Shown here: one piece after another, positions 12,801 to 58,576 of the stretch | How the letters are laid out: every line of letters starts with the position of its first letter | How positions within the stretch are numbered: the stretch's first letter is position 1 | Assembly (NCBI GenBank): GCA_029891345.1 | Contig: CM057009.1 | Location: forward strand, 227,565,620 to 227,629,619 | Source of the DNA: Dryococelus australis | Taxonomy: Eukaryota; Arthropoda; Insecta; Phasmatodea; Phasmatidae | DNA length: 64,000 nucleotides | Direction of reading: 5' to 3' | Program-made: the position numbers and the translations under genes | Notes under the pieces: generated by a model | What the model saw: only the letters and a program-made list of their open reading frames with translations | What the model was told of the DNA's origin: nothing | Databases searched by the model: none

Positions 12801-13773
12801 TTGCTAACAATAATTTCAGCTACAGTGTAATAATTTCAAATAATACTTCCTTTGTCGCTGATGGAAGAAATGAATTCGGTAATATTTAGATGACTGTTGT
12901 AACTCTTACGTATGCTCACGCGCATGTGGCTCGGATATAACGACTCCCTTTTATTACATCATAGATTACATGCGGGTCAAATATTCCTCTCACTGAGGAC
13001 GAAGCGTTGCAACACGTTTTAGTGCATCGGGGAAAATATTTCGTTCTATATTTTCCTTCTATGTCGAATTTTTTCTACATGAACTGCATAATTTTACTCA
13101 CTCTGTAATCTGAACAGATGGCTGTGTTTTGGTCCGCGCTGCTGCATTCCTGTAACATATTATTCACGTTGAGTGAATACCATATGTGTCTATTTATAGT
13201 CAGTCAGTGTTTCAATAAGTGTTCAAGATACATATAACTGAGGCAACTGGAAACATTAGTCATACTGCAAGCTATTTGTAAATTATATTTTTACATAATA
13301 AAATAATATTTACACTCAATTTCGAAACACTGGTTCTACAACTTGACTTTTTGGGCGCAAACGGTTTTGATGCATAACTTTTGTTATCCAAATTTTTTAT
13401 AAATTTTTTTATCGCCCTACACTGTTCACTATTAGACATGTTTCTATTGTCATGAATACCGACAGTAAAATTCGAAATTTGGGATTAATTTTACATAGAA
13501 AATTGTGCAACAAGTATAACACGGAATCAAAGTAAAATAAATCAGTGTTTCCGCAATAAAAATTACGTTAACGGAACCGTCAACAATATTTAGATTATCA
13601 CTGTTACGGTTACAAATACAGCACATTCAAGGGTTACAGCTGCTACAAATACTACTGCTACTACAAAAATACTACTGCTAGAAATACTACTACCATCCAA
13701 ACACTGATATTACAAATATTAATTTTCTTATAAACCCACTATAGTGCCAGATGAATGTATTCTAATAATTGCA
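12801..13773. other. AT-rich DNA with no supported gene
   Basis: No ORF above the length cut-off and no RNA gene. A small degenerate CTACTA/ATACTACT patch is present at about 13,650-13,690, just before the 82-bp array. Confidence 0.5.
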
Positions 13774-14190
13774 TTCTTCGATTATTGACGAATTGTATGT
13801 GTAAGATGGGTTTATAAGTGATAATATTTACTACTTCATGTACTTAGTTACATTATTCTTCGATTATTGACGAATTGTATGTGTAAGATAGGTTTATAAG
13901 TGATAATATTTACTACTTCGTGTACTTAGTTACATTATTCTTCGATTATTGACGAATTGTATGTGTAAGATGGGTTTATAAGTGATAATATTTACTACTT
14001 CATGTACTTAGTTACATTATTCTTCGATTATTGACGAATTGTATGTGTAAGATGGGTTTATAAGTGATAATATTTACTACTTCATGTACTTAGTTACATT
14101 ATTCTTCGATTATTGACGAATTGTATGTGTAAGATGGGTTTATAAGTGATAATATTTACTACTTCATGTACTTAGTTACATTATTCTTCT
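13774..14190. repeat. 82-bp tandem repeat, five nearly identical units
   Basis: The string TTCTTCGATTATTGACG begins at 13,774, 13,856, 13,938, 14,020 and 14,102, so the period is exactly 82 bp. A partial sixth start follows at 14,184. Units differ by only one or two bases (for example GTAAGATAGG against GTAAGATGGG, and TTCGTG against TTCATG). Such homogeneity means recent expansion or ongoing conversion. Confidence 0.95.
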
Positions 14191-45349: not shown

Positions 45350-46089
45350 TTTACAGCAAGCCATACCAGTAGTAGGAACTAGATGGTTTACTTACTAGGG
45401 CATCGGGTATCGGATATGTATTCGGCCGGCCACTATGTTGGAATTTCTTTCCCACCCCCTCTAAATTTCCCGCTTTTCCCTCAAAATATCCCTTGTTCCC
45501 AAAAAATCTCGCTTTTTTCCTTAAAAATTTCCCGGTTTCCCAAAAATATTCTCGTTTTTGCCAGAGACTCGTGACCCAGGGTCAAAGCATGTAGGTGGAT
45601 CAGAGACCCATGTGATCATGGGTCAGGGTAATTGGGCCGGTCAGGACCTTTGACCTTGATCCTGACCTTTGATGGCAAAAATGCAAAGATTCCCAAATAT
45701 TTACAAAAAATTCCAAAATGTAAAAAAAAAAGGTATCAAAAATCCCAAAACATTTATTATTGAATATTTTATTTTAAACCGTTAAAAAGTTATAAAAATT
45801 TCTTACTAACAAATAATTAACCAATTATTTTAAATAACTAAAATTTCGGGAGTTCACCCTTCACCCATACCAATTCTGCGATCTTGGTAGATGACACCAA
45901 CGGCCATCTTTGTAGGCGAAATGCCATTTTGGTAGGGGGACCGCCATCTTGGTAAGCGACCACCATATTGGTAGTCGTCACCCAATGCCCCATAACCTTT
46001 AACACTAATCATGACATTTTATTTTGAACTTTGGCCTTGACCTTTGACCTTGTCCTCATTACCTTTAATTGTCTTAAAAACACAATTTA

Positions 46090-47190
46090 TAGGAAAAAGA
46101 CATTAAAGTAAGCAAGTATAATACATTGCAAACTACTACCACCATATTATATCCAGGTAACCTCGACATTGACCCCATAATAATGAATGGCATTAAAAAC
46201 GAAAACTCGAGAAAAAATACATAAAAGTCAACAAGAATATTACATACTGACCACCACCGACACCTTGGATACAGACGAACTTGGCTTTGAACCCATGAAC
46301 TTGAAAACCAAACTCGAGGTAAAATGTATAAAAGTCAACAAGCATATCACATTACAGACTACTGCCACCATACTAGATTCAGGTAATATAGACCTTGACC
46401 CCATGACCTTGAATGACCTTAATAACAAAAACTCGAGAAAAAAGACATAAAATTTAGCAAGCATATGACATTACAGACTACTAAGCGCTGTTCACGATAA
46501 AGTGAGCACTTTAGAAATGAACTTTAGAAAAAGAGTCACTGTCCCGGAATTTATACATTTTAACGGCGAACGATGGAAGGAAAGAAGTGCCGTATCTCGA
46601 AGTCAAATAAAAAGTGTTAAGTAACCATTTGTGATAACTTATAATTATTTATTTCTTTTTTTTATGCACCGAAGTGTAAAAATTATCAGATTTGTAAAGT
46701 ACTTACTTTCTTAATAACTCCCCAGTTTCATTTGACCGACGCATGACTAAAGTGAGGAGGCCCATGGCAATTTTAATTTTACATAAGGCGGAGGACTATA
46801 CATCGTGTATACAAGTTGATCTTAAGCAGGGCTTTCAAAATTGCTCATTTTATCGTGGACAGCCTTTACCACCATATTAGACTCAGGTAACATCGACCTT
46901 GACCCCATAACCTTAATGACCATGAAAACAAAACTTGAGAAGAAATCCATAAAACTCAGCAAGCATATTACTTTACAGACTACCACAGCCATATTAGATG
47001 CAGGTAACCTCAACCTTGAACCCATAACCGTGAATGACCTTGAAAACCAAAACCCGAGAATAAATCCATAAAAGTCAACAAGCTAATTACATAATATACT
47101 ACTACCACCAAATGATATTTAGATATCGTCGAGCTTGACCCCATGACCTAAATTAACTTGAAAACAAAAACTCGTGAAAAAATTCATAAA
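46090..47190 (+). repeat. 115-bp tandem array in P3 left arm
   Basis: Units start with ACTACTACCACCATATTAGA and contain CAGGTAACCTCGACCTTGAC, then ACTCGAGAAAAAA and CATAAAAGTCAACAAGCATA. Starts are near 46,132, 46,250, 46,360, 46,868, 46,980 and 47,098. The gap between the third and fourth is the MITE at 46,484-46,866. The right arm has only one recognisable unit near 52,780-52,940. Confidence 0.85.
46484..46866. mobile_element. TA-target MITE, 383 bp
   Basis: Terminal inverted repeats begin AGCGCTGTTCACGATAAAGT on the left and, reverse-complemented, AAGGCTGTCCACGATAAAAT on the right. TA dinucleotides flank it (46,482-46,483 and 46,867-46,868). Removing it restores an array unit (ACTACTACCACC). 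The size and TA target fit a mariner-type non-autonomous element. It is absent from the right arm. Confidence 0.88.
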
Positions 47191-47529
47191 AGGCAACGAA
47201 CATGATGTTATTGAGGACTATGTAAATTTATCGATTTTACTCCCAAGCGAGATGTCGACACTTATATTTGTAGGCACAAAGAACCTATAATTTTCCTTTT
47301 TTTATATAAATAATTTTTTCAGTCATCAGTGTAGCTACATGCATGATGTTGGATTTAGACTACAACCCTAATCTATTATATATATCAAAATATATATTTT
47401 ATTACTTACTGTAAGTCCGATAGAAGGAAACAAGACACAAAATTATAAAGACAAAACTATTATTTTAATAGTATTTATTATTATTTTGAAATTACAATTT
47501 CAGAAGAAAGCGTGTATCACATCATCTGC

Positions 47530-49230
47530 AATGTAAAAAAAAAAGTGTGATTTTACACGAATGTAGGTGGCAGCACAGTCTCCACACATGTTCGCGTATT
47601 TTTGCACGTCCGTGTTTACGTGTACTTTTACTGTTTGTCCCATGTATTTCTACAAGTACAATGCCAGTGCAATTATACTATACTTGTTATTCTTTTTACT
47701 AATCATTATGTTCAATTACACGTACAGTGTATGTGTCATTTTACTTTTTTTTTTGCTACCAATATTATTCCGCATAATGTAAATTTACACAAACTTTGTT
47801 AGTATAATTTTATCATACCTGTCAGTTTCTTTTACTTATTATCACATTAAATCACAAGTATTCTGTACATGTTATTATCCTATACTTGGTACTAATTTTC
47901 TACCACACATTGTGAATTAACACAATCATTGTTATGGTAATTTTATAACACCAGTCTGTTACTGTTTAATGTTCACCATAATTGATTACATGTATGCTGT
48001 AGGTGTAATTTTAACTTATGATGCTAAATAACATGCACTCAAAGCCTGAAATTTGATCATGTAAATTATAGATTTCCTGCCACACGCTGTAAATTTACAC
48101 AAATACCACAATTGTAATTTCACCACTGTGTAACAAAAAAGTAAAATCGTATATTCACTGCAATTGTAATTACAAAATTGCTGTACATTAACATAGTTAT
48201 AAAAAGTTATCTCCAAAATGTAGATAACAATTGATTTCAGATATAGAATAGGTAGTTATATACAAAAGCCAGCACATACCATCAGTGGGAGGTAAGACAT
48301 CCTTTTGAACACAAAAGGAGTTCAAAGTAGTTCTACTCCCTACTGCTAGATCGCATGATTTTAGGAAATACTTGTAGTTATATTTAAATTCATAGGAACA
48401 TTAGTGTAAAATTGCAAATAATGTACTCGTTTTAGGAAATTACACATAAAAATGAAAAGTTACCGTAAATTTGTATGTGTAAATATTCGCTCATGTCCAT
48501 TCGAATATGTAATTTTACACCCCTGTTAATGTCAATATACCAGTACATTTGTGTTTTTTTTTTACTATAAGATGGTACTAAATTTTTAGTAAAATAGGAA
48601 AACACATATTTCACATTTGTAATTTTACGCCCTTTTTAATATCAATATACCAGTGCATTTGTGTTTTTTTACAGTAAGACTGTACTACCTAGTGAGTAAA
48701 ATAGGAAAATATGTACTTTTACACTGATGAACGTGTTTTAATACAACATTGTTGTGGTTGTAAAAACACGCAAACTTAGGGTTTTAGTGCCTTGCATTAG
48801 TGTATTTTACACATACTTTTGCAAGTGTAATTTTACACGTTTTTAAATGTCAATATACCAGTTCATTTGTGATTGTTTACAGTAAGATAGTACTACCTTT
48901 TGAATGAAATAGAACAATATGTACATTTACACCGATGTACATGTTTCAATACAACATTGGCGTAGTAGTACAAATACATAGATTTGGGTTTTAATAGTTC
49001 ATGTTCGTGGATTTTTACACGTACTTTCATATGTGTAAATTTACATCCCTCTTATTGTTAATACACCAATACATTTGTGTTTTTTTTATAATATCATTGT
49101 ACTATATCATGAATAATGTTATACATTGCTGTAAATTTACACGTACTGTACTTGTTGTAGCAAATTACACACAGAAAATGTTAAATTACCAAAAGGTTGT
49201 ACATGTATTTTAACACTTTTTTTACAGTGT
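47530..49230. mobile_element. 1.7-kb insertion rich in TGTAAATTTACAC motifs
   Basis: The right arm reads straight from the AATCCCGAT position (52,400-52,415) into the downstream AT-rich part, whereas here about 1.7 kb intervenes, so this is an insertion. Its ends carry a short inverted repeat: ATGTAAAAAAAAAAGTGT on the left, and CACTGTAAAAAAAGTGT as the reverse complement of the right end. Inside, CAATATACCAGTACATTTGTG-like strings recur at 48,533, 48,653, 48,851 and 49,060, and GTAATTTTACAC or GTAAATTTACAC palindromes occur many times. No ORF of interest is present. The element class is unknown to me. Confidence 0.7.
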
Positions 49231-50700
49231 GGTACAATCCCGATTTTTAAGTTCTCTAACGATCGAAACCATTTCTTTCAAGTTTGAGTAATCCCCGCTG
49301 TGTTGCTTATCGAGTAAAATTTCTTGTCTGTCTACAAAATCATTCGTGTCTTCGGCAACCATATAGTAATTAATCTCGACGTCTTCCATCTTCTTCACAT
49401 CACTTGTGGAAGGAAACTCGTTGGTGAAATGAGTGCGAGTGTCAAGGGAATCATCTTCAACACTACTACTATCGTCATAGTCATTATCCATGCTGTTTTC
49501 AATGTCGTCTTCATTTCTGTGCTTCACCCTTAATATCAAGTTTATATTCTTTGTAGCAGGAGTTGTATGTTCATAAGTATTTAGAGTTTATGGTCGTTGG
49601 TTTTCAAGTTATTAGACGTCACGCGAACGTCTTGCAAGTGTACGTTCCGCACAAACGGAGTTTTGAGCATTAAAGGTCTCGTCATAATCGTGTGTGGAAA
49701 AACATTACCTGGCTATGTAGCATGAGGTATTGATGACATCACTTGCTGGCTCCCAGTAGACTAATCCTCTCGGCAGATAGAGATGAACTGATCGAACTCA
49801 CACATGTACCTTCCCTTATGTAGCAGACACTCCTTAACAATCGACAAAAAAACCAATATTTCTCGTTCCAACACAAGGAACGCATACCTTTGAAATCTGA
49901 TAGAGCCATGTCCGTATTAACCGATCATCGTAAACTTTACGTAAATTCGCATCGTCAATACGAACAGCACCAACACATTAGCGTTTTTGCAAAACATCTG
50001 TTTGGGAATGCGCGAATCAGTCTGGTTGAGGTACACGCAGTCAACGTACACACACGTGTCGTCCCATACTGAAATATTCTCGAATGCAAGTTTGTTTCTC
50101 GCAGGCACTGTCATATAATACAAATATCGAGTTTGACAGTGCTTTGCTCGGAGGTATGACAGCTTCATTATTGACGCATTGGAAATAACCCAAGCCTTCC
50201 ACGGCCTACAGTACTCGTGCCAATCGCTGGTATTTCGGTTGCTGGAGCAATTTTAAATATGGGTACATCTTCTCGAACTGAAAGCCGTTCTGTTCTTCCA
50301 GCAGGCACAGTAGAATTCATGTCTTACCGCAACCCTATGGTCCCGCGATGATGCACCTCACTGTATTCGGAAATAGGCTTCCATGTCGCGATTCGTGGAA
50401 AATGTCTTCATCATCAGCATGACTGCATATGGATAGAGTAACATTTTGCTCGATAATACATATGTTAACACTACTATCTTGTGGTGGCAGAGGTGAAGGA
50501 GGAGGCAGTGTAAGAGCCGATTGTACTTGCAGAGGACCAGTGCTACAAGTTTCAGAATGTCACTTCAAATGCCTGTGGCAGAAATCGCATTCTAATGTCA
50601 CATTCGAAGTTTTTATTTTGCATTTCGTTATTTCGTGTCGTCGTAAATTCCGCAAAGCTGTAAATGCTCTACCACAGAAGCGACACAGCAGATGAATCAT
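49222..50700 (-). pseudogene. zinc-finger plus P-loop ATPase gene, P3 left copy, dead
   Basis: Read on the minus strand from about 50,700. A Cys2-His-Cys finger opens it (CRFCGRAFTALRNLRRHEIT, then C), followed by part of a second finger and a proline-rich linker. The Walker A loop (50,321-50,344) is G-P-stop-G-C-G-K-T: an in-frame TAG lies inside it. A YFSMGRH segment, then VYLNQTDSRIPKQMF and NANVLVLF follow. From family knowledge, a GRH...hYLxQxY..IPK...NxN..hLF pattern after Walker A and B resembles A32-like packaging ATPases of Maverick/Polinton-type elements and relatives. The acidic tail (49,222-49,539) is open for 105 codons. Several frameshifts separate the parts. The gene is head-to-head with the right copy. 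Confidence 0.7.
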
Positions 50701-50717
50701 TGGCAATTTATGTCCGT

Positions 50718-50888
50718 GCTGTTTCAAGTCTAAAATGATACTGAAACAAAAAAGTATAAAACGGGCGTATTTAAACTTTGGTGAAAACTCGATCGCAGAA
50801 TCAGCACTGGCGTCAACCAGTTAGCGATAATGCAGGTCGCGGCTCCATGATCGTTGAAGTCAAAGGCAGGTCCTCGTATTGGAACAGT
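50718..50888. promoter_or_regulatory. centre of P3, head-to-head intergenic spacer
   Basis: About 170 bp that do not match between arms, lying between the two divergent gene starts. A GGCTATAAAA string (50,891-50,900) stands just before the right copy's ATG at 50,906. The left copy has GGACATAAAT in the same place. A bidirectional promoter would fit, but no experiment or second copy supports that. Confidence 0.35.
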
Positions 50889-53585
50889 GCGGCTATAAAA
50901 TGCCAATGATGCATCCGCTGTGTCGCTTCTGTGATAAAGCATTTACAGCTTTGCGGAATTTACGACGTAATAACGACCTGCAAGATGAAAACTTCGAATG
51001 TGACATTTTAATGCGAGTTCTGTCACAGGCAGTTTAAACGGGGTGATATTTTGAAGAGACATTCTGAAACTTGTAGCACTGGCTCTCTGCAACCACAATC
51101 GGCTCCGCCTCGGCCTCCGCCTCTGCCTCTGTCACCGCCTCCACCTCTGCAAGATAGTAGTGGTATCATACTTATTATAAAGCAAGATCATACTCTTCCC
51201 ATGCGTATTCATGCTGATGATGAAGATATCTTCCACGAATCGTGACATGGAAGCCTTCTTCCCAATACAGTGAGGTGCATCATTGCGAGATTATCGGGTT
51301 GCGGCAAGACGTGCGTCCTACTGTGCTAGCTGGAAGAACCAAACTGAAGGCATTCAGTTCGAAAACATGTACATATATTCAAAATCACTCCAGCAACCGA
51401 AACACCATAGATTGGTACAAGTACTGCTGGCCGTGGGAGGCTGGGGTTATTTCCCAGGCAGCGATAATGTAGCCGTCGTATCTCCGAGCGAAGCACTGTA
51501 AAACTCGATATTTGTCTTCGATGGTATTGCCTGCGAGAAACAAATATGCATTCGAGAATACTTTAGCATAGGACGACACGTGTAAGTGGACTGCATGTAC
51601 CTCGGCCAGATTTATTAGCACGTACCCAAACAGATGCTTCGCGACAATGCTAATGTGTTGGTGCTGTTTCGCATTGGACGATACAAATTTACATCATGAT
51701 TACGGTGATCATGTTGATACGGACATGACTATCACATTTCAAGGATTTGTGTTCCTTGTGCTGGAAAGAGAAATATGGATTCTTGACGATCGTTTAGTAC
51801 AGTCTCCTACATAAAAAAAAGGTACAGGTGTGGATGGGAACAGTTCATCGCTGTCCGCCTAGAGAGTTCGTCTACTGGGATCCAGCAAGTGATGTAATCA
51901 GTGCCTCCTGCTACATCGATGGTTACTGTTTCCGCAGATGATTATGGCGAGACATTTAATGCTAAAGACAGGAAGATTGCAGTACAGTCTGTTTATGCAG
52001 AACATACATTTGGAAGACATTCGCTTGAAGTCGAAAAACTTCAAAATAAACGACCATCAGCTCCAAATACTGATGAACAACAACTCCTGCTACAATGAAA
52101 ATTAAACTTAATATTCAGGGTGACGCGGAAAGTGAAAACGATCATGGAGACACAATTGATGATGACTATGATGACAGTAATAGTGTTGAAGATGATGATT
52201 CCAACGACGTTCCCACACATATCTCCAACGAGTTTCCTTCGACAAGTGTTGTGAACAAGGCGGAAGACGTCGAGAATACTAACTTTATGTTTACCGAAGA
52301 CCCCAATGAACTTGTCGACAACTATAAATCGTACTCGATAACCAACAATGCAGGGATTACTCAAACATGAAAGTGGGGGTTTCGATCGTTAAAGAACTTA
52401 AATATCGGGATTATAACAGGTTATGTGATGAAATGCTTCCTTTTAAAGTTGTAGTTACAAAATAATAATAAATTAGTATTGTTTTTTTTTTAATTTTTGT
52501 GTATTGTATCATTCAATCGGCCTTAAACTTTGTAATAAATATATTTTTAAAAATATATATATAATAAATTAGGCAACTAGTCAAAGTCCTGAATCATGCA
52601 TGTAGCTATACCAATGATGGGAAAATAGTTTTTTTTTAATAGGGTGGAAGATAAGTTTTATTTTTAGTCTACAAATAAAAGTGTCGACAGATTTCTTGGG
52701 AGTAAAATGAATAATTTAACATAGTTGTCAGTAACATAATCTGATTATTGAATTTTACAAATTTTTCTAGGGGTTTTGTTTTCAAGTTTATTAAGGTCAT
52801 GGGGTCAAGGTCAAGGCTACCTGAATATAATATGGTGGTAGGAGTCTTAATGTATTATGTTTGCTGCCTTTTCTGTATTTTCCCTCGAGTTTTTGTTCTG
52901 AAGTTCGTTCAAGTTCATGATGTAAAGGACAAATGTCAAGGTTAATGTTAAAGGTTATGGGGCACTGGCTTTCAAGGTGGTGGATGGGTGATGACTATGA
53001 AGTTGGAGGTCACCTACCAATATGGTGGTTCCCTACCAAAATGGTAGTCGCCTACAAAGATTGCCATCAGTTGTACATACCAAGATGGCATAATAGGAAG
53101 GCGTAAATGGTGACCTATAGAAATTTTAGTTTTTTAAATTATTTTTAATAACTTTTTAATAATGAAATTTTTAATAAATAGTTCTTACATCTTTAATAAA
53201 ATTTTGATCATAAATTTTTTGGGAATTTTTATTGGAATTTTTGGTGTCAAAGGTCAAGGCCAAATGTCTAATGTCCTGACTGGTCCACTTGCCATGACCT
53301 ATGGTCACATGGGTCGCTGATCCACCCTGGGTCACGAGTCCACCAGTGTTCTCTGGGAAAAACCAGTTTTTTTTTAAATGAAAAAAAGGAAAATTTAAGG
53401 GAAAAAGGGAAACTTTTACGGAAAAAATAAATTTTTATTATATGTAATAGATTTTGAGTAGAAATGGGAAATTTTGAAGGAAACATTGGAAATTCCAGCA
53501 TGGCGGTTAGCCGAATCCGAATCCGATGCCTGATGCCCTTGCAAATCAACCATCTATTTCCTATTACTGATACTGCCTGCGTTTA
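50889..53585 (+). mobile_element. giant palindromic element P3, right arm
   Basis: Mirror of the left arm: gene start, fingers, ATPase, acidic tail, AT-rich trailer (52,440-52,740), one 115-bp-type unit, the CCAAAATGGTAGTCGCC short repeat (53,000-53,090), GGGTCACGAGTCC, GAAAAAGGGAAA tracts and the outer border (reverse complement reads GGGCATCAGGCATCGGATTC). It ends with CTATTTCCTATTACTGATAC at about 53,585. Confidence 0.88.
50906..52370 (+). pseudogene. zinc-finger plus P-loop ATPase gene, P3 right copy, dead
   Basis: Begins at ATG 50,906. The first finger has lost its histidine (RRNND where the other copy has RRHE). The second finger is complete in a shifted frame (CEFCHRQFKRGDILKRHSET, then C). 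A proline-rich linker follows to a TGA at 51,243, where the other copy has CGA. Walker A (51,293-51,312) reads LSGCGKT and is intact. A Walker B-like FVFDG follows, then GRHTC and an NLHHDYGDHVDTDM region. The acidic tail (52,095-52,370) keeps NEFPSTSVV and EDPNELVD. The lesions differ from those in the left copy, so the copies decayed independently. The ATPase assignment is by motif only. Confidence 0.7.
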
Positions 53586-54378: not shown

Positions 54379-55928
54379 ATGACAGCCAGATCAACCTCTG
54401 CAGGAGGAAATTCCAGTCAGTAAGCCCCGATCAATCAGGGCACTCCCACTTCCGCACAAGCAAATCCAAACGCAGAGCTAATCAGGGTGAAGAGGCCCGA
54501 TCTCAGGCCACTGACTGTGTATCACACACAGGAGTGCACTTACCCGCAAAATTGTAGGCTGTTTCTATAACAACTGAGCCAGCCAACTCAAAACAGAGTG
54601 GCCCCACAAGGAGTATCCTACCTCCCTGCCAATTATGAAGATTTTCGCAAGTCGATATCTATTCTTGACGCCCTCAAGGTAGGGTATCCAATCCTCACTC
54701 CGGGCAGCGAGATGCCCATCAAAGTGGCTATTAAGGGGCTAGATAAGAGTATTCCGAGCGCCTGGATTCGCGAGGAACTCGTCTCTCTCGGGTTCGACCC
54801 ACAAACAATCGTGCCTAAGCTTTCAATGCGCGATCGCGAGCTTCTCGACATGTTTACTGTCGAACTCCCGGCCAGTGAAAAGTCTTAGTCAATCTACCAG
54901 CTTCGTGGACTCTGTGGCTTTGTAATCAAGGTCAAAGATTACCGGCGACCTGGAGGATCAGCGCATTGTTGCAACTGCCAGCGATTTGGACACGCGACTA
55001 GAGTGTGTGCCCCCCCCCCCCCCAGGTGCAGGCTGTGTGGCAAAGTACACACCACCCTGCAATGCGACCTGCCAGACAGAGACGACAGGGCTCTGTGTAA
55101 ATGCGTGAGTTGCGATGACAATCACGCTGCCAATTATAAAGCCTGCGAGGCTTATAAACAAGAAAAGTGGGGATATCTTGCCCCACAAGAGTGCAGGAAG
55201 CGAGGGCAAAAGAGCAGATACTCTGCTGCGATAGCAGCTCAACCTAAGCAGTTTAATTCGACTCCCGCCCCCCGGAATCCAACATCGGCAACACAGCCTC
55301 CTCAGCCCCACAGCAATCGCAGCCACCCCAGCAGAACCCTGCCCAGCCGCAAGATGGCTGGGCGCAGGTCCTGGGCAGGAAACAATGCACGCCAGCCCAG
55401 ACTTTTGTGCCTCACTTCGCATAAAAACGCTTTATACCAGTTGTCAATACCTATGGTGCACTGGCAGACTACCAGGCATCGGAAGTCGAGTTTCCGGCGC
55501 TTGCAAATCCTTATCGCTCAAAATGGCAGCCACGCGAAGCTCCTCTTTTAGAAAAGGGGAAACAAAATAAAAATTCACAAAGGAAAACTTCCCAGCAGCC
55601 TCATGAATTGCAACAGCAGCCTCAGACCCCCCCCCCCACCCCCGAGGTTCCAACCCAGCGGCCTCAGCAGTCGCAGCCATTAGCCCGGCCAATCAGGAGC
55701 CAGCTCAACGCCATCTCGGATACAATTAATATACAGGTATTAATTAAGGAGGCAAAGATTAGCCCCCTAAATGAAAAATTCCCCGACTTTAGTGGAGTGC
55801 TGGAGGCACTCTGCAACTTATTAATTGTTGGGACTGACCAAACCAAGTCAGCTGAAGAGAAAGGGCGAGCCCTGACTGGGGAAGCCCTCTCAATTGTGAA
55901 AGGGCAGCAGCAGCCTGATGGCTGTTAA
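54379..55928 (+). pseudogene. Jockey-clade LINE ORF1 (zinc-knuckle protein), decayed
   Basis: The likely start is ATG 54,379 (MTARSTSAGG), with in-frame stops at 54,421, 54,568 and 54,886. The segment 54,598-54,888 has the PRE_C2HC-type region (PIKVAIKGLDKSIPSAWIRE ... ELVSLGFDP). Three zinc knuckles follow: CCNCQRFGHATRVC, CRLCGKVHTTLQC and CVSCDDNHAANYKAC. A 14-base poly-C falls between the first and second knuckle and shifts the frame. A proline- and glutamine-rich part leads to the C-terminal segment at 55,608-55,928 (FPDFSGVLEALCN and on). ORF1 proteins bind element RNA. The terminator overlaps the ORF2 ATG at 55,918. Dead as a gene. Confidence 0.85.
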
Positions 55929-58576
55929 TTTGCAGTTGGCAAATGCTATGCATTTTGGGTTTAATTTGTTCAGTAGTATAATTTACTAGAATGCTAACGG
56001 TATACGCAGTAAAAAACAGTAGCTGGTAGATTTTATTTTTCGTCATCAGATTTCTATCATTGCAAAAAACTAAATTCACTTAGACCCACAGCATCAATTT
56101 TCTGTTCTCGACTATAAATGCTATCGAGGTGTCATTATATTAATTCATAATTCAATAGTATGCAAACCCGCGAAAATAATACAAATTCAAAGACTCGAAG
56201 CTGTGGAAGTTACCATTAAACTCGGCAATCAACATGTTGCCATTTATTCAGTTTACTGCCCGCCAGGTCGCACACTTTCACGTGCAGATCTTGATGAATT
56301 AACAATTGCTTAGCCAGTCTTAATCGCAGTAGGCGATTTAAATGCAAACATCCTGCCTGGGACTGCCTCACTCGCACAGCCAATGTCAATACCTTGTTTA
56401 GACACCAAGAGCACCATAATTATATAATTTATGCCCCTAGTGAACATTTCTTTAACCCTCATAATATAAATTATAGGCCCGATATATTAAATATCGTGCT
56501 AAATAAAGGCTTTAATATGGCCTTAGAATTTAATGTGCTCCACGAATTGGCTTCGGACCATTATCCTGTCCATTTATCTTTCAATGAACTTGAAACAGAC
56601 GATACACCAATTCGAAAAATTGGTTCAGAGAATACCTAGATGAGGAAATAAATCTCACAGCTCCTATTAGTTCTCCCGATGAATTAGACTCTATTGTCGA
56701 GCGCGTCACAGAGCTAATTCAGACAGGAGTAAATAAGTATGTCCCGGAAAAGACACCGAGGATTAACGCAGATAAGCTCCCTGATAATATTAGGGAACTT
56801 ATCTCCCGCAAAAATAGGCTGCGCAGGCTCTATTCGCGAACTAGATCTAGGCAAACTAAAACCCATATCAACAATCTTAGAGAGCGTATTGATATTGAAT
56901 TCACTGCCTGGCAGTCCAACGTGTGGAATAATAAATTACCTCGCCTATGTACTCAGGACCAAAGCTTGTGGTACATGCCTAAAACATTTACTAAAAAGCG
57001 TTCCCAAATCCCGCCTCTTCAAGGCAATTATGGTGTGGCTTTAACACCTCAGCTGAAAGCTAAGGCTATGGCAAATAAATTAGAAATAGCTTTCCAGCCT
57101 AATAACTTTCCAGCTGATCCAGCTTTTATTGCCCAAATTTATAGAGACCTCCGAGTGCGCCTGCGACAGCCCACCGTGGCTGAACCAGACCCCACGCACG
57201 CTGAGGAGGTCAAGCGTATAATTAAACGTCTGAAACCACGCAAAGCACCTGGGTTAGACTCCCTCCAGGCCGTAGTTTTCAAGCAGCTGCCTGACAGCAT
57301 TTTGAGGCTATAGCTGAGTGCATTAATGCAAGTTATAATCTTGCCTACTTCCCCACTTACTGGAAAAGTGCAAATGTAATTGTATTTCCCAAACCGGGCA
57401 AAGACCCGACTCAACTGCAAAATTACCGCCTCATCAGTTTGCTATCCACGCTCTCTAAGTTTCACGAAAGAGCAATTTGGCTTTCGGAAAAAGCACTCAA
57501 CAGTGCACCAACTCGTCCGCTTATCGGAACACATAACTAAATCATTCAACTGCCGCCAGTTCACGGCAGCTGTATTTTTAGACGTGGAGAAGGCCTTGAT
57601 AAGGTGTTCCACGCAGGGCTATAATATAAATTATATCGGGCTGAATTCCCGGACTGTTACATTAAGCTTCTGGCCTCGTACTTGGACCACCGCTCCTTCT
57701 CAGTATCCATTGAAGTAGTGGTGTCTACCTACCAAGAAATATACTAGGGCTGGCCTACCTCCGGGTAGCATCCTGGGTCCAGTCCTATACAATCTTTATA
57801 CACACGACATTCCTCGCCCACTCACCCATAACTGACTTATTATCATGGGTGTTTACGCTTTTGACACAGTCATTTACACCCACTCATGCAAAGCTAAACT
57901 TTCAATTCAGCGACTTCAGGCTCTACTCAATGAGTTCGAAAATTATTTTCGCCAATGGCGCATTAAAATAAATGTATGTAAGAGCGAGGCTCTAATCTTC
58001 ACGCATCGCCATATTATTCCCCCTAATTTGCAGCTAACCCTCTTTAGGGAAAATATTCCTTTTAAGGATAAAGTTAAGTACCTCAGCCTTATCATGGACA
58101 GTAAGTTGACATGGCGCCACCATGTGGAGGCTAAGCGTAATCTCGCATATGCCAGCCTGTCTGCCCTATATTCATTACTAAATCGCAGCTCCTGATTGTC
58201 AGTGAAAAATGGGATACAATTACACCAGTCTTTGGTTATACCCATCATCGCATATGCTGCCCCTGCATGGGCTTATTGTGCCCCCACTCAATTAAATTCC
58301 TTACAAGTGGTGCAGAATAAATGTCTAAGATTAGCTGCACATGCACCACGTTACATTCCCATCAGAAACTTGCATGCAGAACTCAAACAAGAACTGCTGC
58401 AAGATGTAATTCTCAAGCAGGTCCTAACCTTTTATAAATCTCTGAACCAACATGCCAATCCTCTCATCACTGTCATAGGAGACTATGATATCGATGAGAC
58501 CCAAAGCTATAAGCGGCCCAAGTCGCTTCTAACCCTCAACCCTGCGTATAATACACTGCCTTGCCAATCATTATAG
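55918..58576 (+). pseudogene. Jockey-clade LINE ORF2 (endonuclease + reverse transcriptase), decayed
   Basis: Starts at ATG 55,918, overlapping the ORF1 end by 11 bases. Stops appear within the first 40 codons. APE-type endonuclease signs are GDLNA (near 56,333), a W/D-containing stretch and ASDHYPVHL. RT signs follow: KPRKAPGLDSLQAVVFKQLP, then the VIVFPKPGKDP and NYRLISLLST strings, EQFGFRKKHSTVHQL, FLDVEKA, GLPPGSILGPVLYNLYTHDI, and QWRIKINVCKSEAL. At the catalytic box the sequence is VYAFDTVIYTH: the Y-A-D-D motif has phenylalanine in place of its first aspartate. The C-terminus (AYAAPAWAYCAPTQLNSLQ ... LRLAAHAP) is typical of Jockey ORF2. Multiple frameshifts confirm inactivity. Confidence 0.88.

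Follow-up and report, generated by a model that had tools for sequence, protein, structure and literature searches.

The stretch of DNA analyzed here (the window) comprises 64,000 nucleotides of the Lord Howe stick insect, Dryococelus australis (assembly GCA_029891345.1, contig CM057009.1, forward-strand positions 227,565,620 to 227,629,619). It contains a giant palindrome of 8,201 bp, P3, with exact ends set by family comparison, in which a gene for a zinc-finger ATPase is found twice in head-to-head orientation. With moderate confidence, P3 is interpreted as a dead, integrated, snap-back-like deletion derivative of a Maverick/Polinton element. The probable Maverick link is well supported by the Maverick-like ends, the duplications found in the family, the A32-type ATPase in relatives and the PolB gene beside one copy. 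The snap-back step is a proposal, and gene conversion on the chromosome is its chief rival. Parts that we infer are the complete gene complement of the parent, snap-back outside the chromosome, help in trans and a packaging role of the ATPase.

An earlier note on this DNA had described two mirrored arms around a 170-bp centre. Self-comparison indeed shows long inverted arms, and the border, the pyrimidine tract and the array unit named in that note, the last of these 119 bp long, are present in both of them. The arms are not equal, however, with 5.4 kb on the left and 2.7 kb on the right, and the centre is corrected to 151 bp and is asymmetric. Over 1,558 columns the inner coding parts (49230-50727 against 52418-50879) are 77.7% identical. 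For the middle part (47023-47528 against 52919-52417) the identity is 73%, and for the outer 0.9 kb (45356-46254 against 53580-52724, E 3e-66) it is 66%. A forced end-to-end alignment of the arms gave 65% identity in the mirrored orientation and 43% with one arm flipped as a control. The left arm is about twice as long as the right one because it carries a dispersed repeat, additional 119-bp units and an unmatched 1.7-kb block. The dispersed repeat (~380 bp) occurs in dozens of places in the genome, and 42 of the 46 matches listed fall in or about it.

Relatives of the gene were searched in the insect's own genome (3.415 Gb). Scoring 85 of 31,636 first-look candidates yielded 103 matching stretches, which is a minimum. 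The sample consists of the 30 best loci (L009-L038), taken with flanks of 1.5 kb and, for ten of them, with extra upstream sequence; all copies were sampled via the right-end gene, and the sample says nothing on left-end derivatives. Downstream of the gene the homology continues for ~0.5-1.5 kb and then stops at a sharp border in most loci, and upstream it fades within 250-500 bp. The 3' border reads ...CCTACTACT or ...CATACTACT, with variants. These ends first showed up in pairwise comparisons, where the homology broke off sharply. The 3' end was found in 23 of the 30 loci with a terminal profile that was itself built from the 3' ends of 22 of them, so that those matches are not independent. 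The 5' end is absent from the profile and was found in 12 of the 30 loci; both ends are present in 11, delimiting 2.8-7.6 kb. Ten further copies with ~3 kb of upstream sequence added three more 5' ends. In the ten extended upstream pieces a 5' end is seen in L026, L031 and L033, and none was found to more than 4.5 kb upstream of the gene in L010, L011, L014, L021, L025, L027 and L037. Among these, the upstream region of L037 holds PolB and that of L025 an inverted partner.

The termini of P3, AGTAGTAGG and CCTATTACT, are of the Maverick/Polinton (AGT)2//(ACT)2-or-related type. For vertebrate Mavericks, a 5'-(AGT)2//(ACT)2-3' end motif together with 6-bp duplications has been described (PMC8097293). 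Target-site duplications were evaluated in 16 two-ended elements: P3, a second palindrome of the window (P2), the C3 pair discussed below, L012, L013, L018, L020, L024, L026, L028 (with a weak match at its 5' end), L029, L031, L033, L035, L038 and L052. L034, L056, L060 and L063 each lacked one end and were not counted. At a flank length of 6 bp, 64 of 96 positions match (0.667), and none of 20,000 permutations reaches 64. Flank lengths of 3-5 and 7-9 give matches of 0.13-0.30. Cross pairs at length 6 match at 0.27, with one of 240 reaching 5/6 and none 6/6. Nine of the 16 elements match at 5 or 6 of 6 positions, and P3 and L024 at 4. A 6-bp duplication is thus strongly supported at family level. 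The precise ends and the family-level duplications make the earlier suggestion of an integrated linear element largely right, and the fear that no other copy would share the borders did not come true, as they are shared with other copies of the genome-wide family.

The left gene copy, translated with X at stops (P0001), matches nine proteins, of which eight belong to D. australis and the ninth to the ant Cardiocondyla. In P0002, a relative from D. australis, Pox_A32 was detected above the Pfam cut-off. A profile search returned 660 proteins among 5,547 candidates; most of the 120 matches listed carry Pox_A32 (PF04665), many have ~229 residues, and they come from ants and metagenomes. Eight genome copies were also scanned for Pox_A32: four are above the cut-off (L014, L012, L029, L031), L010 is just below it, and three have no match. 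The window copy alone has no Pox_A32 match, and Pfam gave only weak matches on its pieces, mostly to fingers, so the ATPase assignment rests on the relatives. With P0002 and four of eight genome copies above the cut-off, the A32 resemblance noticed earlier is supported. The copies display, with decay, fingers of the form CxxC-x12-H-x(3-4)-C, a Walker A motif (GPSGCGKT) and an acidic tail ending in a DPNELVDRL-like motif. A packaging role would be suggested by the family to which the ATPase belongs. In the window copy and the eight genome copies, Pfam matched no DDE or other nuclease or transposase family to the gene. A PHROGs search of the window copy gave nothing useful, and Rfam gave nothing above gathering scores. 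A scan of IMG/VR with 20 A32-type proteins matched 48 stretches, none of which was confirmed. In the ant protein P0006 (Cardiocondyla obscurior) an A32-type ATPase is joined to a PF26634 region (presumably DUF8207), and its end resembles the tail of the window gene. The tail end of the latter may be derived from a PF26634-like neighbor.

A PolB relic lies upstream of the gene in L037, head-to-head with (divergent from) the ATPase gene. The Bacillus rossius protein P0127 aligns with its residues 218-1364 across L037 and L048. A 189-residue open piece of the relic matched 1,264 proteins among 2,230 candidates. Among the 120 matches listed, the top two are Bacillus rossius proteins (62 and 56% identity, one with PF03175); the PolB of a Ladona dragonfly adintovirus (P0183) also matches this piece with E 2e-37. 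Pfam alone gave no polymerase match in the pieces of the relic. The L037 region also contains, still further to the left, a relic of an A32-type ATPase (L054) and a stretch (L053) that matches the C-terminal part of the ant protein, and no left end was found in 17 kb of this region. L046, upstream of L011, contains one PolB fragment of 46 residues in the same direction as the gene. In the window, tblastn with three PolB proteins gave no PolB match, and P3 is therefore classified as a derivative and not as a complete Maverick/Polinton member. The N-terminal fingers of the stick insect PolB (P0127 residues 42-164) resemble those of the ATPase gene (pairwise E 3e-4). Perhaps the latter were derived from PolB's own N-terminal fingers or both represent a shared DNA-binding module, but this is only a lead.

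The geometry of the junction was studied by comparing the centre of P3 with the upstream halves of the other 29 loci, with 14 rows listed per side. On the right arm, 11 of the 14 listed matches start exactly at 50879. The exceptions are L026 and L027, which are partners of palindromic loci, and L032, which matches 50817-50880. On the left arm, matches that start in the gene continue through the centre and end at 50880 (L035, L028 and L027) or at 50869 (L019 and L022). Since the left-type matches span the centre and the right-type matches begin at 50879, the centre is the upstream region of the left copy, which is what a fold-back loop predicts. The right copy has an abrupt start near codon 5. 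A part of the centre, ~64 bp long, also occurs upstream of other gene copies, at differing distances and, in L032, in the opposite orientation.

P3 is not the only member with inverted ends, and their length varies widely. The inverted repeat measures 59 bp in L020, 108 bp in L024, 156 bp in L038, 220 bp in L013, 0.74 kb in L035 and 1.18 kb in L012. It enters the gene tail in L031 and L033, includes part of the gene in L025 and contains the whole gene in P3, L026/L041 and the C3 pair L019/L022. The earlier suggestion that the terminal repeats contain the gene consequently holds for the extreme of this range but not as the general plan of the family, as the inverted partner reaches the gene in eight of the 30 loci (L009, L019, L022, L025, L026, L027, L031 and L033). 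L026/L041, flanked by TGTCCT/TGTCAT, is a second full palindrome of 7,564 bp. The identity of its arms is 84% close to the gene and 80 and 67% in two pieces further out; the arms start ~138 bp upstream of the gene slice and leave a loop of ~553 bp. The inner breakpoints of P3 and L026 differ, which indicates that the palindromes arose separately, more than once. The C3 pair occupies C3:107698744-107726516 (27.8 kb, computed from loci and ends) with identical flanks (CGCGTG/CGCGTG), and its inner breakpoint, too, is not that of P3. Over 3.1 kb the identity of its arms is 93.7%, and its genes, ~22 kb apart, differ at 0.1% of 1,410 sites. In the 20 of ~22 kb of its interior that were scanned with Pfam, only Tc1-type transposase domains and no Maverick gene were recognized. 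The C3 element (L019, L022, L039, L040) resembles a composite young element or a converted pair.

Both gene copies of P3 are dead, contrary to the earlier description of a complete gene in each arm. The left copy keeps a single frame over 505 codons with 14 internal stops and no defined start codon, and the right one is split by frameshifts. The published assembly of 3.42 Gb was made from PacBio continuous long reads (CLR) without short-read polishing (PMC10268593), so single indels may be assembly errors. The many substitutions are not accounted for by CLR read errors. Elsewhere in the genome, two seemingly stop-free copies (C1:269.0 Mb and C4:146.7 Mb) were rejected, as stops or frame changes were found in a longer context. 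Between the left and right copy of P3, codon positions 1, 2 and 3 differ at 17.6, 18.9 and 20.4% (88/499, 95/502 and 102/499; no significance test). This nearly codon-flat divergence appears close to unselected decay after a near-identical start, as would be expected of copies that were alike at insertion.

A mechanism can be proposed from these observations. The parent would have been a Maverick whose PolB and finger-ATPase genes pointed away from each other and whose linear DNA was copied by its own PolB. During replication, a strand copied from the right end would have turned back ~150 nt upstream of the gene, by snap-back or copy-back as in defective viral genomes. The outcome would be two mirror arms around an unpaired 151-nt loop. 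P3 would then keep only the right end of its parent, namely the gene for the C2HC fingers and the A32-type ATPase, a non-coding stretch of ~1.2 kb and a terminus of the ...ACTACT type. Its left end would be an inverted copy of that right end. Subsequently, enzymes from a full element would have inserted the molecule with a 6-bp target duplication. Among the relatives, derivatives with short repeats could be explained by internal deletion, and gene-spanning inverted repeats by snap-back copying with an unpaired loop.

Several observations weigh against this snap-back reading. PolB adjoins only one of 42 inspected gene copies (the 30 loci, L051, L052 and ten more), and Pfam revealed no integrase or capsid gene in the pieces to which it was applied, no whole-genome search having been made. 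The duplication of P3 itself is imperfect (CATACC/GATACT), and five of the 16 two-ended elements match at three or fewer of six positions (L020, L029, L035, L038 and L052). At the junction, L032 matches 50817-50880 in the unexpected orientation. The geometry and the nearly codon-flat divergence agree with a snap-back origin; the faster-diverged non-coding arms and the in-frame gaps do not. The non-coding arm parts (66-73% identity) are more diverged than the gene (78%), and the gaps of 18, 12, 18 and 3 bases in the left copy are all in frame. Over the 30 loci, likewise, the gene differs by 16% and the downstream non-coding DNA by 26% (in 27 of 30 loci). The slower divergence of the gene and the in-frame gaps suggest that the arms may not have been fully alike when inserted and that selection may have acted before insertion. 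Across copies the third-position skew is weak (0.160/0.138/0.183 over 411 pairs). The gene has probably been under some selection in the past, either in full parents or in the small elements. Finally, conversion of one end by the other in place would also keep the target duplication.

This last point leads to the strongest competitor of the snap-back reading, in which the palindrome grew on the chromosome. An ordinary Maverick derivative would have been inserted first, and its left half would later have been overwritten with the right half by gene conversion or ectopic recombination, as has been proposed for the long terminal repeats of Galileo. The terminal repeats of Galileo vary from 18 bp to ~1.26 kb through recruitment of inner sequence and tandem-repeat dynamics (PMC3573991), and a comparable variation in repeat length is seen in the D. 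australis family. However, in the part of that report available, the Galileo repeats stop at ~1.26 kb, without full-length palindromes and a short asymmetric loop (PMC3573991), whereas full palindromes with a short loop are found in at least two insertions here (P3 and L026). In addition, the 19% divergence of the P3 gene copies implies that any conversion ended long ago. Growth on the chromosome is regarded as a possible but rather unlikely origin of P3.

It is more doubtful still that the 3-4-kb one-gene elements form a self-standing transposon family, moved by the finger-ATPase protein, with P3 as an inverted dimer. The plan of one gene between two ends does recur, in the 11 two-ended loci and with a 5' end in three of ten more, and the lower divergence of the gene (16 against 26%) hints at past selection. 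The lack of a match to any DDE or other nuclease family in the gene, the Maverick-like ends with 6-bp duplications and the copy that adjoins PolB speak against it, and the third-position skew is too small to show long selection in these small copies.

It is highly improbable that the head-to-head genes go back to two independent insertions or to a tandem pair inverted by chance: the arms do differ in inserts and arrays, but the right copy breaks cleanly inside its coding region, the palindrome is bounded on either side by an element terminus, with 6-bp flanks that are related (and not unrelated, as in the chance inversion considered in the earlier note), and the same plan recurs in L026. An assembly or read artefact, conceivable for an assembly from CLR reads in the form of a palindromic read, can be practically dismissed for P3, as it would give near-identical arms and those of P3 show 19% divergence at coding sites and kilobases of unshared inserts. 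Both explanations were rejected on these grounds. The divergence argument does not apply to the nearly identical C3 pair (gene 99.9%), for which a read artefact has to be kept in mind.

Compared with the vertebrate (AGT)2 type of Maverick/Polinton (PMC8097293), the P3 family shares the end motif, the 6-bp duplication and a packaging-type ATPase, with PolB beside one relative. P3 differs in its length of 8.2 kb and in carrying a single gene, twice and mirrored, where a full element has many genes; its window has no PolB, integrase, capsid and protease genes were not recognized, and its ATPase is joined to C2HC fingers and an acidic tail. The PolB beside one family member is a clear homologue of adintovirus PolB over the 189-residue piece, but P3 itself lacks PolB and no virion genes were seen. 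Galileo/Foldback elements likewise have very variable terminal repeats, some copies consisting almost only of repeats (PMC3573991). Galileo belongs to the P superfamily, however, and is described in the available part of that report with 7-bp duplications and without an ATPase or full-length gene palindromes (PMC3573991). In the P3 family the duplication length is 6 and not 7, and the gene has no match to a transposase family. In adeno-associated virus, snap-back genomes have been described in which one genome end is also duplicated and inverted around a turn (PMC8235507). This virus is a parvovirus, and its snap-back genomes are packaged in virions and are not chromosomal fossils (PMC8235507).

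A broader hypothesis, which can be put forward only tentatively, is that the D. australis copies are a series of fossils of Maverick genomes that resembled defective interfering ones. Copy-back molecules, their inverted ends ranging from short to full length, would have been made and integrated repeatedly, keeping the ATPase end. Defective genomes of the copy-back kind are a hallmark of viral replication. Particles of animal Mavericks, which may or may not live as viruses, have not been observed (PMC8097293). If true, such a series in one genome would be indirect, testable evidence for a Maverick viral life cycle, and animal Mavericks would have been replicated and carried as linear virus-like genomes with a snap-back satellite population. 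The case also presents a fusion of fingers with an A32-type ATPase and one possible route to giant palindromes in insect chromosomes. No paper on palindromic Mavericks was found by title or start of abstract among the papers listed from the openly licensed literature, and the main text of the D. australis genome paper does not contain the words Maverick or Polinton (PMC10268593).

Table 1. Features of the palindrome P3 (window coordinates)
Feature	Position	Strand	Remark
Left target-site duplication candidate, CATACC	45362..45367		4/6 match with right copy
Left terminus AGTAGTAGG, Maverick (AGT)2-type end	45368..45376	+	motif in PMC8097293
P3 palindrome	45368..53568		8,201 bp
Left arm with insertions and array expansion	45368..50727		self-comparison
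Dispersed repeat, common in the genome, inserted in left arm but foreign to the element	46487..46869
119-bp tandem units of left arm, 2.8 copies	46871..47197		more degenerate units from 46067
Block found in left arm only, no right counterpart	47529..49229		1.7 kb; partly 208-bp repeats (48602-49086)
Left gene copy: C2HC fingers, Pox_A32-type ATPase, acidic tail	49222..50739	-	family assigned via relatives
Asymmetric centre (loop), upstream region of left gene copy	50728..50878		comparison with other loci
Right gene copy, frameshifted pseudogene starting inside the coding region	50879..52420	+	~codon 5 of P0001
Right arm	50879..53568		self-comparison
Right terminus CCTATTACT	53560..53568	-
Right target-site duplication candidate, GATACT	53569..53574

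Two more stretches with inverted arms are present in the window. P2 (34806-43458, 8,653 bp) is a giant palindrome with the ends AGTAGT.../...ATTATT and a perfect duplication (GGTGCT/GGTGCT). It contains arrays of 118-119-bp units and is without match to the ATPase or PolB proteins tested. P1 (27117-31567, flank to 31887) has inverted arms of 1.3 kb with 82% identity. These arms carry degenerate, inward-pointing homologues of the acidic tail of the gene, and finger-like relics are found just outside the right arm. Elsewhere in the window, the open reading frames at 54889-57313 look, by eye, like a CCHC gag-like protein and what we take to be a region of a non-LTR (long terminal repeat) retrotransposon. 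A tandem array of an 82-bp unit (5.1 copies, 98% matches) is located at 13773-14189.

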